Assembly (NCBI RefSeq): GCF_026627445.1
Contig: NZ_JAPNLJ010000004.1
Coordinates: 124,001 to 188,000, forward strand
Direction of reading: 5' to 3'
DNA: 64,000 nt
Source of the DNA: Streptomyces sp. H27-H1
GTDB lineage: Bacteria; Actinomycetota; Actinomycetes; Streptomycetales; Streptomycetaceae
A model generated the notes under the pieces. That model saw only the letters and a program-made list of their open reading frames with translations, was not told the origin of the DNA and ran no database searches. The translations under genes were made by a program, and so were the position numbers. How positions within the stretch are numbered: the stretch's first letter is position 1; each line of letters opens with the position of its first letter. Positions 28,426-34,327 of this stretch are shown here, piece after piece.

Positions 28426-29763
28426 TCAGGCCGTGGCGGCCCCGGCGGCCGAGCGGCGGCGGATGACCATCGCCATCAGGGCGGCCATCGCGCACAGGGC
28501 GCCCGAGGCGTACCAGACGGGGTCGTACGAGCCGAAGGCGTCGCGCGCCAGGCCGCCGAGGAAGGCCACCGTGGCCGCGCCGATCTGGTGCGAGGCCAGG
28601 ACCCAGCCGAAGACGATGGCGCCTTCCTCGCCGTAGTGCTCGCGGCACAGCGCGATCGTCGGCGGGACGGTCGCGACCCAGTCCAGCCCGTAGAAGACGA
28701 TGAAGAACAGCATCGGCGGGTGCACGGTCGGGGCCAGCAGCATCGGGAGGAAGAGCAGAGAGATCCCGCGCAGGGCGTAGTAGACGGCGAGGAGGCGGCG
28801 CGATTCGAAGCGGTCCGTCAGCCAGCCGGAGAACACCGTGCCGATCACGTCGAACACGCCGATCACGGCGAGGAGCCCGGCCGCGGCCGTCACCGGCATG
28901 CCGTGGTCGTGGGCCGACGGGACGAAGTGGGTCTTCACCAGGCCGTTGGTCGAGGCCCCGCAGATCGCGAAGGTGCCGGCCAGCAGCCAGAAGGGTCCGG
29001 TCCGGGCCGCCTTGACCAGTACGCGCACCGCCCGGCGGGCGGCCCCGGGGACGGGCGCGGGCTTGGCCGTGTACGCGCCCCCGTACGGGGTGGTCCCGAT
29101 GTCCGCAGGATGGTCGCGCAGCAGCAGCCAGACGAAGGGCACGACGGCCAGGGCCGCCAGCGAGACGGTGACCGCCGCCGGGCGCCAGCCGTGGTGTTCC
29201 ACCTGCCAGGCCAGCAGCGGCAGGAAGACCAGCTGGCCGGAGGCGCCGGCGGCGGTCAGGATGCCGGTGACCAGGCCGCGCCGGGCGACGAACCAGCGGT
29301 TGGTGACCGTCGCGGCGAAGGCCAGTGCCATCGAGCCGCTCCCGAGCCCGACCAGGACGCCCCAGTACAGGATCAGTTGCCAGGAGGAGGTCATCCACAC
29401 CGTGGCGACCGATCCGGCGGCTATGACGGTCAGCGCGAGAGCGACGACCCTGCGGATGCCGAAGCGGTCCATCAGCGCGGCGGCGAAGGGTGCGGTGAGC
29501 CCGTACAGCGCGAGGTTCACGGAGACGGCGAGGCCGATCGTGCCGCGCGACCAGTCGAACTCCTCGTGCAGCGGCTCTATGAGCAGTCCGGGGAGCGAGG
29601 CGAAGGCGGCGGCGCCGATGATCGTCACGAAGGCGACGGCCGCGACGAACCAGGCGCGGTGGACACGGTGTCGCCGCGGTGCGCCGGGGGCGGGCGTGGA
29701 GGCGGGCGTCGAGGCGGGTGCAGGTGCGGAGGAGGGGCCGGGTCCCGGGGCTGTGTGCGTCAC
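28426..29763 (-). CDS. MFS transporter (monocarboxylate/OFA-like)
   Basis: This 445-residue protein has 12 predicted transmembrane helices. The motifs HEEFDWSRGTIGLAVSVNLA, DRFGIRRVVALAL and NRWFVARRGLVTGIL are typical of MFS members of the oxalate/formate antiporter and monocarboxylate type. The His/Pro/Ala-rich N-terminus (residues 1-35) is low-complexity. It is divergently transcribed from a GlxA-type regulator across 71 bp, so it is probably the regulator's target. Substrate is unknown. Confidence 0.85.
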   Translation of the reverse strand: MTHTAPGPGPSSAPAPASTPASTPAPGAPRRHRVHRAWFVAAVAFVTIIGAAAFASLPGLLIEPLHEEFDWSRGTIGLAVSVNLALYGLTAPFAAALMDRFGIRRVVALALTVIAAGSVATVWMTSSWQLILYWGVLVGLGSGSMALAFAATVTNRWFVARRGLVTGILTAAGASGQLVFLPLLAWQVEHHGWRPAAVTVSLAALAVVPFVWLLLRDHPADIGTTPYGGAYTAKPAPVPGAARRAVRVLVKAARTGPFWLLAGTFAICGASTNGLVKTHFVPSAHDHGMPVTAAAGLLAVIGVFDVIGTVFSGWLTDRFESRRLLAVYYALRGISLLFLPMLLAPTVHPPMLFFIVFYGLDWVATVPPTIALCREHYGEEGAIVFGWVLASHQIGAATVAFLGGLARDAFGSYDPVWYASGALCAMAALMAMVIRRRSAAGAATA

Positions 29764-29822
29764 GCCGCCAGTTTCCGGCCGTGGGCGACTCCTACGACAG
29801 TGGCCTGAACGACATGCTTCGA

Positions 29823-29837
29823 TATGATCGGGCCATG
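29823..29837 (+). promoter_or_regulatory. Leaderless promoter of the GlxA-type regulator
   Basis: TATGAT ends six bases before the ATG, with no Shine-Dalgarno. The 71-bp divergent spacer must also hold the MFS promoter and any operator. Confidence 0.55.
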
Positions 29838-30866
29838 GAGACTCGCGCGCACCGTGTCGTCGTCCTGGCCCTCGCGGGGCTGCTGCCCTTCGAGCTCGGG
29901 ATCCCGCACCGGATCTTCGGCCGTGCCCTGGGCGCGGACGGGCGGCCGCTCTACGAGATCCTCACCTGCGGGCTCGCCCCCGGCCCGGTGCCCACGGACG
30001 CCGACTTCGCCATCCACGTCGAGCACGGCCCGGAGCTGCTGGCCACGGCCGACACCGTGGTGGTCCCCGCCTCCTACGAACTGGGCCCGGTCCACAGCGA
30101 GGGCCGGCTCACCCCCGAACTCGTCGCCGCCCTCGCACACATAAGGCCCGGCACGCGGCTCGTCTCCATCTGCACGGGCGGCTACGTCCTCGCCGCCGCC
30201 GGCTTCCTGGACGGCCGCCGGGCCACCACCCACTGGGCCTCCGCCGAGCACTTCCAGCGGACCTTCCCGGCCGTACTGGTCGACCCCGGCGTGCTCTACA
30301 CCGACGACGGGGACGTTCTCACCTCCGCCGGAGTCGCCGCCGGGATCGACCTGTGCCTGCACATCGTGCGCCGCGACCACGGCGTGGCCGTCGCCAACGA
30401 CGTGGCCCGGCGCACCGTCGTACCGCCGCACCGCGAGGGCGGGCAGGCGCAGTTCATCGCCCGCCCGGTGCCGCAGCCGCAGCGGTCGGCCACCGGCGCG
30501 GCCCGCGCCTGGGTGCTGGACCGGCTGCACGAACCGCTGCTGCTGACCGACCTGGCCCGGCAAGAGGCGGTCTCCGTGCGGACCTTCACGCGCCGGTTCC
30601 GCGAGGAGTCGGGGCTCAGCCCGGGCGAATGGATCGTCGGGCAGCGGGTGGAGCGGGCCCGGGCGCTGCTGGAGCAGACCGACCTGCCGATGGAACACGT
30701 GGCCCGGGAAGCGGGCTTCGGGACCGCGCAGTCGTTGCGCAAACACGTCCAGGCGGCGCTCGGCGTGAGCCCGACGGCCTACCGGCGGACCTTCCGGGAG
30801 ACCGCACCGGGCGCCACCCTGCCATCTCCTGATGGGACATCAGTTGGTGCCGGGTCCGTGCATTGA
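29835..30866 (+). CDS. GlxA family transcriptional regulator (DJ-1/PfpI plus AraC)
   Basis: This 343-residue regulator has an N-terminal DJ-1/PfpI-like amidotransferase domain (VLALAGLLPFELGIPHRIFG, LVSICTGGYVLAAAGFLDGR with the nucleophile-elbow cysteine ICTGG) and a C-terminal AraC pair of helix-turn-helix motifs (TRRFREESGLSPGEWI, VAREAGFGTAQSLRKHV). Such regulators usually control an adjacent gene, here the divergent MFS transporter. The ATG is chosen by the -10 six bases upstream and by domain start; longer in-frame starts overlap the transporter promoter. Confidence 0.9.
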   Translation: METRAHRVVVLALAGLLPFELGIPHRIFGRALGADGRPLYEILTCGLAPGPVPTDADFAIHVEHGPELLATADTVVVPASYELGPVHSEGRLTPELVAALAHIRPGTRLVSICTGGYVLAAAGFLDGRRATTHWASAEHFQRTFPAVLVDPGVLYTDDGDVLTSAGVAAGIDLCLHIVRRDHGVAVANDVARRTVVPPHREGGQAQFIARPVPQPQRSATGAARAWVLDRLHEPLLLTDLARQEAVSVRTFTRRFREESGLSPGEWIVGQRVERARALLEQTDLPMEHVAREAGFGTAQSLRKHVQAALGVSPTAYRRTFRETAPGATLPSPDGTSVGAGSVH

Positions 30867-30929: not shown

Positions 30930-32407
<1,478 letters not shown>

Positions 32408-32411
<4 letters not shown>

Positions 32412-33385
32412 CCCGGCACCGACCCGCAGCCGCCGCGTGGGCGCGGGTGAGGCGGTGGCGGGCCGCAGTGGCGGCAGCCCTCGCCGTGCCGGTCGCGGCC
32501 GGGCTCCTGCTGCTCGGGCCCGCCGGGCCGGCCGCCGCGGCCGACAACGGGCAATGGTCCGTCCTGCCCGCCGCCAACACCCTCGGACAGCGTCCCTACT
32601 TCTACCTGGCCGCCGCCCCGGGCCAGGCCGTCACCGACTCCGTCACCATCGCCAACCGCACCGACCGCCCCCGCACCTTCCGCCTGTACGCCGCCGATGC
32701 CTACAACACCGCCCGCGACGGCGGCTTCGCCCTGCGTGGGCCCGAGGAGCCGCGCAGGGCCACCGCCGCCTGGACGGTGCTCGCACGGGAGCGGATCACC
32801 GTCCCGGCGAAGACGGCGCTCGACGTCGGCTTCACCCTCACCGTCCCCGACCGGGCCGAACCCGGGGACCACCCCGGAGCCGTCGTCGCCCTGGAGGACC
32901 GGCCGGCCGGTACGGCGGTGCGGGGGATCGGCGTCCAGCAGGCCGTCGCGGCCCGCCTCTACCTCAGGGTCACCGGCCCCACCGCCCCCGCCCTGGCCGT
33001 CGAGGAGCTCCGCACCGCCCGTCGAGGCGCCGGCGGCGCGGAAATCTCGTACACGCTCCACAACCTCGGCAACGTCACCCTGCGCCCCCGCGCCACCCTG
33101 ACCGCCTCCGGGGCCCTCGGCCGGGGCCTCCTCTCCCGCCCCCTCACCGGCCTGCCCGCGGAGCTGCTGCCGGGCCAGCGGGTCCGGCTCACCGCGCACT
33201 GGGCGGACCCGCCCGACCTGGAATGGACCGAGGTCGCGGTGACGGCCCGGGCCGACGGGGCGGCTGCCCGGGCCGCCGCCGGAGACGCCGCGCACCCCGC
33301 CCTGAACGGCCTGCTCGCGGCCGCTCTGGCCCTCCTGGCGGTGGCCTGGTCGGCGCTGGGAGCCGCATCGGGGAGAATGGCCCGT
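32408..33385 (+). CDS. DUF916-like WxL-interacting protein, in frame with era
   Basis: This exported protein has a twin-Arg-rich start and signal sequence (VAAALAVPVAAGLLLL, cleavage near PAAAAD). A DUF916-like domain follows (NTLGQRPYFYLAAAPGQAV, SVTIANRTDRPRTFRLYAAD, GVQQAVAARLYLRVTG), then a second beta-sandwich and a C-terminal membrane helix (LNGLLAAALALLAVAWSAL). DUF916 proteins associate with WxL proteins and peptidoglycan. The GTG overlaps the WxL-like gene. No in-frame stop separates it from era, and the end given is only the last base before the era ATG. A TGA at 33387-33389 in the next frame would give a usual ATGA overlap if one base were shifted. Confidence 0.75.
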
Positions 33386-33388
33386 ATG
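33370..33388 (+). promoter_or_regulatory. Internal start signals of era
   Basis: GGGGAG (33370-33375) lies ten bases before the ATG and can act as Shine-Dalgarno. The overlapping GAGAAT (33373-33378) lies seven bases before it and looks like a leaderless -10. Either allows Era to be made alone even if the upstream frame is continuous. Confidence 0.5.
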
Positions 33389-34327
33389 AGCGATCGTTCC
33401 CCCGAGACCACCAGCCCGCACCGTGCGGGCTTCGCATGCTTCGTCGGCCGTCCCAACGCGGGGAAGTCGACCCTGACCAACGCGCTCGTGGGTACCAAGG
33501 TCGCGATCACCTCCAACCGGCCCCAGACCACGCGCCACACCGTCCGCGGCATCGTGCACCGCCCCGACGCCCAGCTCGTCCTGGTCGACACGCCCGGCCT
33601 GCACAAGCCGCGCACGCTGCTCGGCGAGCGGCTGAACGACGTGGTGCGCTCGACCTGGTCCGAGGTCGATGTCATCGGCTTCTGCCTGCCCGCCGACCAG
33701 AAGCTCGGCCCCGGCGACAAGTTCATCATCAAGGAGCTCGCGGGGATCAAGAAGACCCCCAAGATCGCCATCATCACCAAGACCGACCTGGTCGAGCCCA
33801 AGGTGGTGGGTGAGCAGCTCATCGCCGTGCACCAGCTCGCCGAGGAGCTGGGCTTCGAGTGGGCCGAGATCGTCCCCGTCTCGGCGGTCGGCGACAACCA
33901 GGTCCAGCTGCTGGCGGACCTGATCGCGCCGATGCTGCCGAAGAGCCCGCCCCTGTACCCCGAGGGCGATCTCACCGACGAGCCCGAGATGGTCATGGTC
34001 GCGGAACTGATCCGCGAGGCCGCGCTGGAAGGCGTACGGGACGAGCTCCCGCACTCCATCGCGGTCGTCGTCGAGGAGATGATCCCCCGGGAGAACCGCC
34101 CGGCGGACCGCCCGCTGCTCGACATCCACGCGAACCTCTACATCGAGCGGCCGAGCCAGAAGGGCATCATCATCGGCCCGAAGGGCGCCCGCCTGAAGGA
34201 GGTGGGGATGAAGTCGCGCAAGCACATCGAGGCTCTGCTCGGCACCCCGGTCTTCCTCGACCTGCACGTGAAGGTCGCCAAGGACTGGCAGCGCGACCCC
34301 AAGCAGCTCCGCAAGCTCGGCTTCTGA
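33386..34327 (+). CDS. era: GTPase Era
   Basis: This 313-residue essential GTPase binds 16S rRNA near its 3' end during 30S assembly. G1 GRPNAGKSTLTN, G3 DTPGLHKP and G4 TKTDLV are intact, and the C-terminal KH domain carries IIGPKGARLKEVG. The ATG opens the usual N-terminus and has its own ribosome-binding site. The reading frame continues upstream without a stop through the whole DUF916-like gene, so a 639-residue fusion can also be read. Here era is separated from the phoH-ybeY-corC operon and deaminase-like gene by an accessory block. Confidence 0.96.
   Translation: MSDRSPETTSPHRAGFACFVGRPNAGKSTLTNALVGTKVAITSNRPQTTRHTVRGIVHRPDAQLVLVDTPGLHKPRTLLGERLNDVVRSTWSEVDVIGFCLPADQKLGPGDKFIIKELAGIKKTPKIAIITKTDLVEPKVVGEQLIAVHQLAEELGFEWAEIVPVSAVGDNQVQLLADLIAPMLPKSPPLYPEGDLTDEPEMVMVAELIREAALEGVRDELPHSIAVVVEEMIPRENRPADRPLLDIHANLYIERPSQKGIIIGPKGARLKEVGMKSRKHIEALLGTPVFLDLHVKVAKDWQRDPKQLRKLGF

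Follow-up and report, generated by a model that had tools for sequence, protein, structure and literature searches.

Introduction

Fusions of the GTPase Era to other domains have been described as extremely rare, and the working of such complex Era proteins is counted among the open questions in the relevant passages of a 2023 review (PMC10582724). For example, Era is fused N-terminally to YbeY in Clostridia and others, and to RNase III in Rickettsia (PMC10582724). Another example is given in one clause of the same review, where a fusion "with DUF916 in certain Streptomyces sp." is recorded from InterPro (PMC10582724, section 15 and legend of Figure 3B). In a literature search on DUF916, Era and Streptomyces, this review was the only one among the matches listed that has Era as its subject; no report of an internal era promoter, a membrane helix or losses of the fusion was found among the matches listed, and nothing pertinent appeared among the listed matches of a search for fusions that contain a promoter. 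The fusion itself is already in print, and what is new here is its anatomy, that is, the predicted helix, the embedded promoter-like boxes, the single origin and the losses.

Two further bodies of work bear on this locus. DUF916, whose current Pfam name is WxLIP_PGBD (PF06030), is part of the WxLIP proteins of Firmicutes WxL clusters, which have the order DUF916, DUF3324 and transmembrane helix in the passages of PMC10599100 that deal with them. On the side of transcription, the sections of PMC4895711 on start sites give TANNNT as the Streptomyces -10 consensus, and leaderless mRNAs as about 21% of the primary start sites in S. coelicolor.

The fused reading frame

The window analysed here is a stretch of 64,000 nucleotides from Streptomyces sp. 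H27-H1 (contig NZ_JAPNLJ010000004.1, positions 124,001 to 188,000), whose genome (G000) comprises 8.9 Mb in 176 contigs. On its forward strand, positions 32408–34327 form a single open frame encoding a WxLIP protein, a predicted transmembrane helix and Era. A preliminary description had read this frame as uninterrupted from the GTG at 32408 to the end of era at 34327, and translation bears this out, with 639 codons for 639 residues and one stop only, the TGA at 34325–34327. The GTG and the stop codon (TGA) of the WxL-like gene before it overlap in GTGA, and era itself (33386–34327, forward strand, 313 aa from an internal ATG) is the only era found in the window genome.

By itself such an open frame would mean little, because the DNA is of high G+C and several unfused loci are also open upstream of era for hundreds of codons. 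A homologous and constrained WxLIP gene read in the era frame without a stop of its own has been found, however, in 30 distinct loci including that of the window (38 identifiers, less 8 with an identical junction), the WxLIP part being undamaged in 28 of them. Unfused WxLIP homologues have their own stop in 70 of the 70 cases read, three of these being paralogues in the window genome. A chance open frame was ruled out on these grounds, since the upstream gene is both stopless and homologous in the same frame. A sequencing error or indel at the junction was ruled out as well: the preliminary description had suggested that a one-base error might have hidden the TGA of a normal gene end, and the check on orthologous loci refutes this, independent genomes carrying the same fused frame. 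The WxLIP (DUF916)–Era frame is thus confirmed by locus comparison as genuine and free of sequencing error at the junction.

The Era half

Residues 338–639 match both Era equivalog models above their cut-offs (NF000908, 350.8 bits against 237; TIGR00436, 217.5 against 116.25). KH_2 (PF07650) is matched in the C-terminal half, and both Pfam Era domains are present in 28 of 28 fused rows of the alignment. By these matches the C-terminal half is a complete Era GTPase, with a predicted role in 30S assembly.

The WxLIP half and its predicted topology

The protein opens with a putative signal peptide region (residues 1–45; 32408–32542), delimited by hydropathy, by a helix at residues 10–23 in a low-confidence stretch of the structural model and by alignment; it varies among species, and in the alignment the mature part starts near D46. 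The first beta-sandwich (residues 46–190; 32543–32977) corresponds to the WxLIP peptidoglycan-binding domain, residues 53–159 matching PF06030 at 2.7e-9 (37.5 bits, cut-off 27.3). The same family is matched at E <= 0.01 by 52 of 52 homologues of our alignment A2, in which 52 of 88 prepared references were used. Together with the NF000908 match, this upholds the earlier reading of a DUF916-like region and a complete Era in one frame. A second Ig-like domain (residues 195–295; 32990–33292) is placed by the model where the host-binding domain of a WxLIP protein would be; the Pfam HBD (DUF3324) model has no match in the window protein, the fused rows or the A2 homologues.

The ectodomain model, built from 52 sequences with a mean pLDDT of 82.7, predicts two beta-sandwich domains between the signal-peptide helix and a further helix at 297–320. 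The best PDB matches, by sequence profile (E 4e-4) as well as by fold, are the EfmWxLIP1 structures (9i25, 9i1y), to which the first domain owes its assignment together with PF06030. Foldseek aligned the model with EfmWxLIP1 at E 2e-13, though the TM-scores were only 0.35/0.45; VIA-align superposed residues 47–294 on 9i25_C with Z 13.6 over 226 residues (rmsd 11.3, 16% identity), and unrelated Ig-like chains ranked next with Z 10–12. The large rmsd and low TM-scores are probably due to the two domains standing at a different angle to each other, or to an error in the modelled angle.

The transmembrane helix (residues 297–320; 33296–33367) is predicted from the ectodomain model and from a hydropathy window at 302–320. 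Its best 19-residue mean hydropathy is 2.16 in the window protein, and it is weak in some fused rows (1.15 in L053, 1.31 in L048, 1.33 in L052). A model of the full-length fusion from 28 similar rows was poor (mean pLDDT 52, residues 308–388 below 50) and was used for the coarse layout only, the ectodomain model being preferred; it sets the helix at 298–314. The last seven of the 24 helix residues, 314–320 (WSALGAA), are encoded by the promoter-like DNA of era described below, a statement which depends on the ectodomain model and hydropathy, because the poorer full-length model stops the helix at 314. The predicted cytosolic linker (residues 321–337; 33368–33418), delimited by alignment and by the pLDDT of the full-length model, is basic and spans the start of era; it too is encoded by this DNA. 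An exported ectodomain, one helix and a cytosolic Era, as the preliminary description had it, is the best prediction from models and hydropathy.

The basic tail typical of unfused WxLIP proteins is absent from the main fused group. The window genome holds three further WxLIP paralogues at other loci (L002, L003 and L004; 42–44% identity), in each of which a helix and then a basic stretch precede the stop.

The upstream gene and the neighbourhood

The gene directly upstream (30930–32411, forward strand) encodes a 493-aa WxL-like protein, the candidate partner of the WxLIP. Its match to PF13731 WxL (E 4.3e-4, 20.8 bits) is below the cut-off of 25. A long Pro/Ser/Ala-rich repeat separates the two parts of this protein and resembles a wall-spanning stalk. 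The order upstream is PhoH-like, YbeY-like, CBS/CorC-like, a small protein, cytidine-deaminase-like, MFS-type, GlxA/AraC-type and WxL-like, followed by WxLIP–Era. Only the WxL-like, WxLIP and Era assignments were checked against the family library, the other names having been given by reading the translations. With names given in this way, the neighbourhood is otherwise the familiar phoH–ybeY–era arrangement, the MFS-type transporter, which is on the opposite strand, and the GlxA/AraC-type regulator (28426–30866) lying with the WxL–WxLIP pair between the cytidine-deaminase-like frame and era.

Distribution and origin of the fusion

In a search of 392 Streptomyces genomes, the window genome included, a WxLIP match at E <= 1e-60 was present in 142. 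In 17 of the 392, at 64–100% identity, the match extends to the residue that directly precedes Era, within an uninterrupted frame at least 631 aa long; one high-identity genome (G070) holds a truncated WxLIP only. The 70 homologues with separate stops mentioned above have identities of about 60% or lower. Among the best 80 loci from a scan of named genomes, 20 are fused (L035–L054), those of the following species among them: S. lavendulae, S. virginiae, S. goshikiensis, S. katrae, S. cirratus, S. avidinii, S. xanthophaeus, S. amritsarensis and S. bambusae; in S. lavendulae the fused frame is carried by a complete chromosome (NZ_CP024985).

In a tree of era DNA with 108 distinct rows, inferred by a quick method, the 30 fused rows fell on one side of a branch with an SH-aLRT of 97. 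A more careful era tree, to which clade members lacking WxLIP were added, gave a clade of 38 rows with support 99/92. By these trees the fusion is a feature of one clade with a single origin.

The junction itself suggests how the fusion may have arisen. In L007 and L009, which are outgroups, WxLIP terminates at a TGA that is in the era frame, 33 nt ahead of the ATG of era; L013 has a TGA at the same place in the era frame, yet its WxLIP ends 52 nt before era. The basal fused rows L052 and L053 have 29 and 7 extra codons before the linker, L052 also retaining a TRRR tail that resembles unfused WxLIP, and in a later fused group the helix is four codons shorter. Given the TGAs of the outgroups, the linkers of the basal rows and the shorter helix of the later group, the simplest history would be the loss of the stop followed by whole-codon deletions that moved the helix into the DNA preceding era. 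The whole-codon length changes at the junction are few in number.

Promoter-like DNA ahead of era

Two conserved boxes lie inside the fused frame just before era. The first, TGGTCGGC (33347–33354), is a -35-like element that is invariant in 28 of 28 fused rows and has related boxes before unfused era; the second, GAGAAT (33373–33378), is a -10-like element with A at position 2 and T at position 6, seven nucleotides from the ATG. The block containing it, ATCGGGGAGAATGGCCCG (33367–33384), is likewise invariant in 28 of 28. Within the 39 bases before the era ATG, only columns 8–15, 17–19 and 38 vary among the 28 fused rows, that is, the spacer and the last column. The preliminary description had given era a -10 of its own, and the element is indeed conserved in unfused species. 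In 75 distinct unfused sequences, era is preceded by a conserved GTnCG box, a gap and ATCrGGGAnAATG, then 6 bases to the start codon; the spacing from AATG to the start codon is 6 nt in 74 of the 75 and 5 nt in one. Of the 86 unfused loci, L008 and L010 fail the text pattern, and show the same boxes by eye with an ATGGAC start. This DNA lies mostly outside any WxLIP gene in the unfused species, and the same two-box layout precedes era in members of the clade without WxLIP.

The ANNNT core of the second box fits both the Streptomyces -10 and a leaderless mRNA, because, at its distance, transcription would begin at the ATG or beside it. On the other side, a scan of 33250–33450 for consensus sigma-70 promoters found nothing, so that the promoter call is based on conservation and spacing; a terminator scan was also empty. 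We conclude that the 39 bases before the era ATG are probably a two-box promoter whose mRNA would be leaderless. The ribosome-binding site that the preliminary description had assigned to era is more likely part of this promoter, although it could serve as a Shine-Dalgarno sequence on a longer transcript.

Codon statistics, drawn from 28 of the 30 fused rows (L131 and L051 left out), point to the same DNA. The third-position G+C is 0.95 in the ectodomain and 0.93 in the helix region, and falls to 0.70 in the 39 bases before era. Synonymous difference drops from 0.35 in the helix region to 0.075 in the linker and 0.018 in era codons 1–12, and is 0.19 over the remainder of era; in codons 1–12 the amino-acid change (0.072) exceeds the synonymous difference. 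Because both third-position G+C and synonymous difference drop there, the constraint appears to act on the DNA, unlike in ordinary coding sequence. The conservation of the linker residues (WSALGAASGRMAR) was considered as proof of a function in the protein and rejected, since it largely persists in clade members without WxLIP and tracks the boxes rather than the codons.

Losses within the clade

A search of the 392 genomes for the era-start block, with up to two mismatches, found it in 26, the 17 fused ones and nine more. On the careful tree eight of these nine are inside the fused clade; the ninth (L149/G067), whose block has two mismatches, is outside it and was excluded from the clade counts. 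Among the eight, L151 holds only WxLIP remnants and L153 a truncated WxLIP, and no WxLIP was found upstream of era in the others, among them L147, L148, L150, L152 and L169, within 139 bases of upstream sequence in L147, about 1,200 in L152 and 1,518 in the others of the eight. L147 is at a contig end, and its genome gave no WxLIP match in the genus search. All eight have an intact era with intact boxes ahead of it. A WxL-like homologue is retained beside era in three genomes of the clade without WxLIP (L148, L150 and L169), where it may have another anchor partner or be decaying.

Two of the 17 genomes with the fused frame carry damage in it. In G078 (L131, locus 1504-1507) the WxLIP ectodomain is frameshifted between query residues 101 and 103, the helix–linker–Era frame remaining open. 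In Streptomyces sp. H27-H5 (G191; L130 = L051) a deletion has fused the WxL-like gene, in frame, with the central part of the WxLIP, and a triple WxL–WxLIP–Era frame ending at the era stop is possible there. Either the L131 frameshift or the L130/L051 deletion could be an assembly fault. Overall, the fusion is apparently intact in 15 of 25 sampled clade genomes, the window genome included, and the WxLIP is lost or damaged in the other ten, two of them possibly through assembly faults; the fusion would thus be dispensable. On the tree of 38 clade rows, named loci included, retention versus loss of WxLIP takes at least eight changes. Among the genomes examined, no clade member was found with an intact WxLIP separate from era.

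Selection on the frame

Era after codon 12 has a pN/pS of 0.096, and the helix region has 0.94, with no purifying selection. For the WxLIP ectodomain, compared over the first 250 codons in sets of seven or eight hand-picked loci each, dN/dS was 0.33 and 0.44 in two fused sets versus 0.10, 0.31 and 0.33 in three unfused ones. By these ratios both the ectodomain and Era are under purifying selection in the fused species, and the constraint on the ectodomain argues that WxLIP has been translated at some time.

In-frame stops occur in the 39-mers before era in 7 of 71 distinct unfused sequences versus none of 8 distinct fused ones, a difference that is not significant; the TGA counted in L008 is doubtful, as its register follows the text pattern and not the ATGGAC start. 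Within the fused clade the total tree length per fourfold site is 4.1 substitutions for era and 6.8 for the ectodomain, and only one single change that would make a stop falls outside the boxes, in the free spacer. The absence of linker stops was thus set aside, the comparison being underpowered to prove that the fusion is under selection. As it is not significant, the want of stops over the final 13 codons neither establishes nor rules out selection for tethering Era.

How the locus may work

It is probable, in our judgement, that this is a clade-wide fusion of single origin with two outputs, free Era and a WxLIP–membrane–Era protein, and that it is mostly tolerated. The stop codon of a WxLIP gene directly upstream of era would have been lost once, for the whole clade, and later deletions would have moved the WxLIP helix into the promoter region of era. 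As a first output, the era promoter within the WxLIP coding sequence would give a leaderless or nearly leaderless mRNA and from it free cytosolic Era. As a second, translation of the WxL–WxLIP mRNA would give a protein with its WxLIP ectodomain exported, a single membrane helix and Era facing the cytosol; this protein would be made whenever WxLIP is translated, because no stop precedes Era. We infer production of the two mRNAs, promoter activity of the boxes, stability of the fusion protein and folding of its Era half. In the main fused group, the promoter and start region of era appear to supply the end of the membrane anchor of the surface protein, and this use could by itself explain why no stop has been regained before the linker. 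Two points go against it, the pN/pS of 0.94 in the helix region and the low hydropathy of the helix in L053, L048 and L052. Most likely, the fusion is tolerated, and the frame is kept since the WxLIP anchor uses that DNA rather than because it is needed for ribosome assembly.

Alternatively, the product might be silent or unstable, the WxL–WxLIP operon being rarely expressed or the fusion being cleaved to leave free WxLIP and free Era. We regard this as possible but rather doubtful: the operon is accessory (142 of 392 genomes with a WxLIP match) and often decaying in the clade, as would be expected of it, and the purifying selection on the ectodomain speaks for a WxLIP that was made at some time.

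Another explanation is that a working membrane-bound Era couples 30S assembly near the membrane to the cell wall, and that the frame has been selected for this. The purifying selection on both ectodomain and Era is in accordance with it, as are the predicted topology, which would place Era in the cytosol after a 17-residue linker, and the want of any examined clade member with an intact WxLIP apart from era; membrane association of Era has also been reported for other bacteria, to judge from titles cited in PMC10582724. On the other hand, WxLIP has been repeatedly lost or damaged in the clade with era intact, the conservation of the linker is accounted for by DNA boxes that persist without WxLIP, and the constraint on WxLIP is no stronger in the fused sets than in the unfused ones. 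A functional tether therefore seems unlikely. It is likewise improbable that the clade makes, beside ordinary Era, a single-pass, wall-binding membrane Era with a helix partly written in era promoter DNA, through which wall signals could act on 30S assembly. As for the earlier proposal that Era as such is tethered to the envelope, it is not supported in that form, since era very probably has its own transcript too and the clade members without WxLIP keep era intact.

A programmed +1 frameshift before the era start, ending at the TGA at 33387–33389 (forward strand), would free WxLIP from Era. This TGA overlaps the era ATG in the next frame, as the preliminary description had noted, and the conserved block contains four consecutive G. 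The overlap exists only because era starts with ATGAGC, as do many unfused era genes, and the TGA is not reached without a frameshift; both it and the G run also precede era in unfused genomes, so that no frameshift is needed to explain them, and a classical slippery heptamer was not seen by eye. We consider this mechanism very unlikely. Finally, a base dropped by sequencing or assembly at the end of WxLIP deserves almost no credence: 30 distinct loci in many assemblies, complete chromosomes among them, share the frame, and nothing was found in favour of such an error.

Comparison with known systems

The preferred reading, a mostly tolerated fusion with two outputs, can be set beside four described systems. 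The closest is the fusion named in PMC10582724, which has the same domain pair in one reading frame and occurs in the same genus; it is left uninterpreted there, and section 15 and the related passages make no mention of domain order, membrane helix, internal promoter, single origin or losses. With the Firmicutes WxLIP proteins and EfmWxLIP1 (9i25, 9i1y), the window protein shares the PF06030 domain, two Ig-like domains, a C-terminal helix and an adjoining WxL-like gene. In contrast to them, it comes from an actinomycete, its second domain is unmatched by the Pfam HBD, and its gene is stopless and runs into era. The YbeY–Era and RNase III–Era fusions resemble it in that an extra domain is part of one protein with Era. 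YbeY and RNase III are RNA-processing proteins of the same pathway as Era, whereas here Era is joined to a wall-associated protein that is exported and has a membrane helix.

The likeness to the leaderless genes of Streptomyces, as described in the start-site sections of PMC4895711, is the ANNNT-type -10 at a leaderless distance from the era ATG. The difference is that the promoter-like DNA is also translated as part of the membrane helix of the upstream protein. Because there are many fused species with one origin, unfused relatives and several losses, the question of how complex Era proteins work could be tested here by comparison and simple genetics. The locus would be a case in which a bacterial gene has turned the promoter of the essential gene next to it into codons of a membrane helix, apparently without the loss of that promoter.
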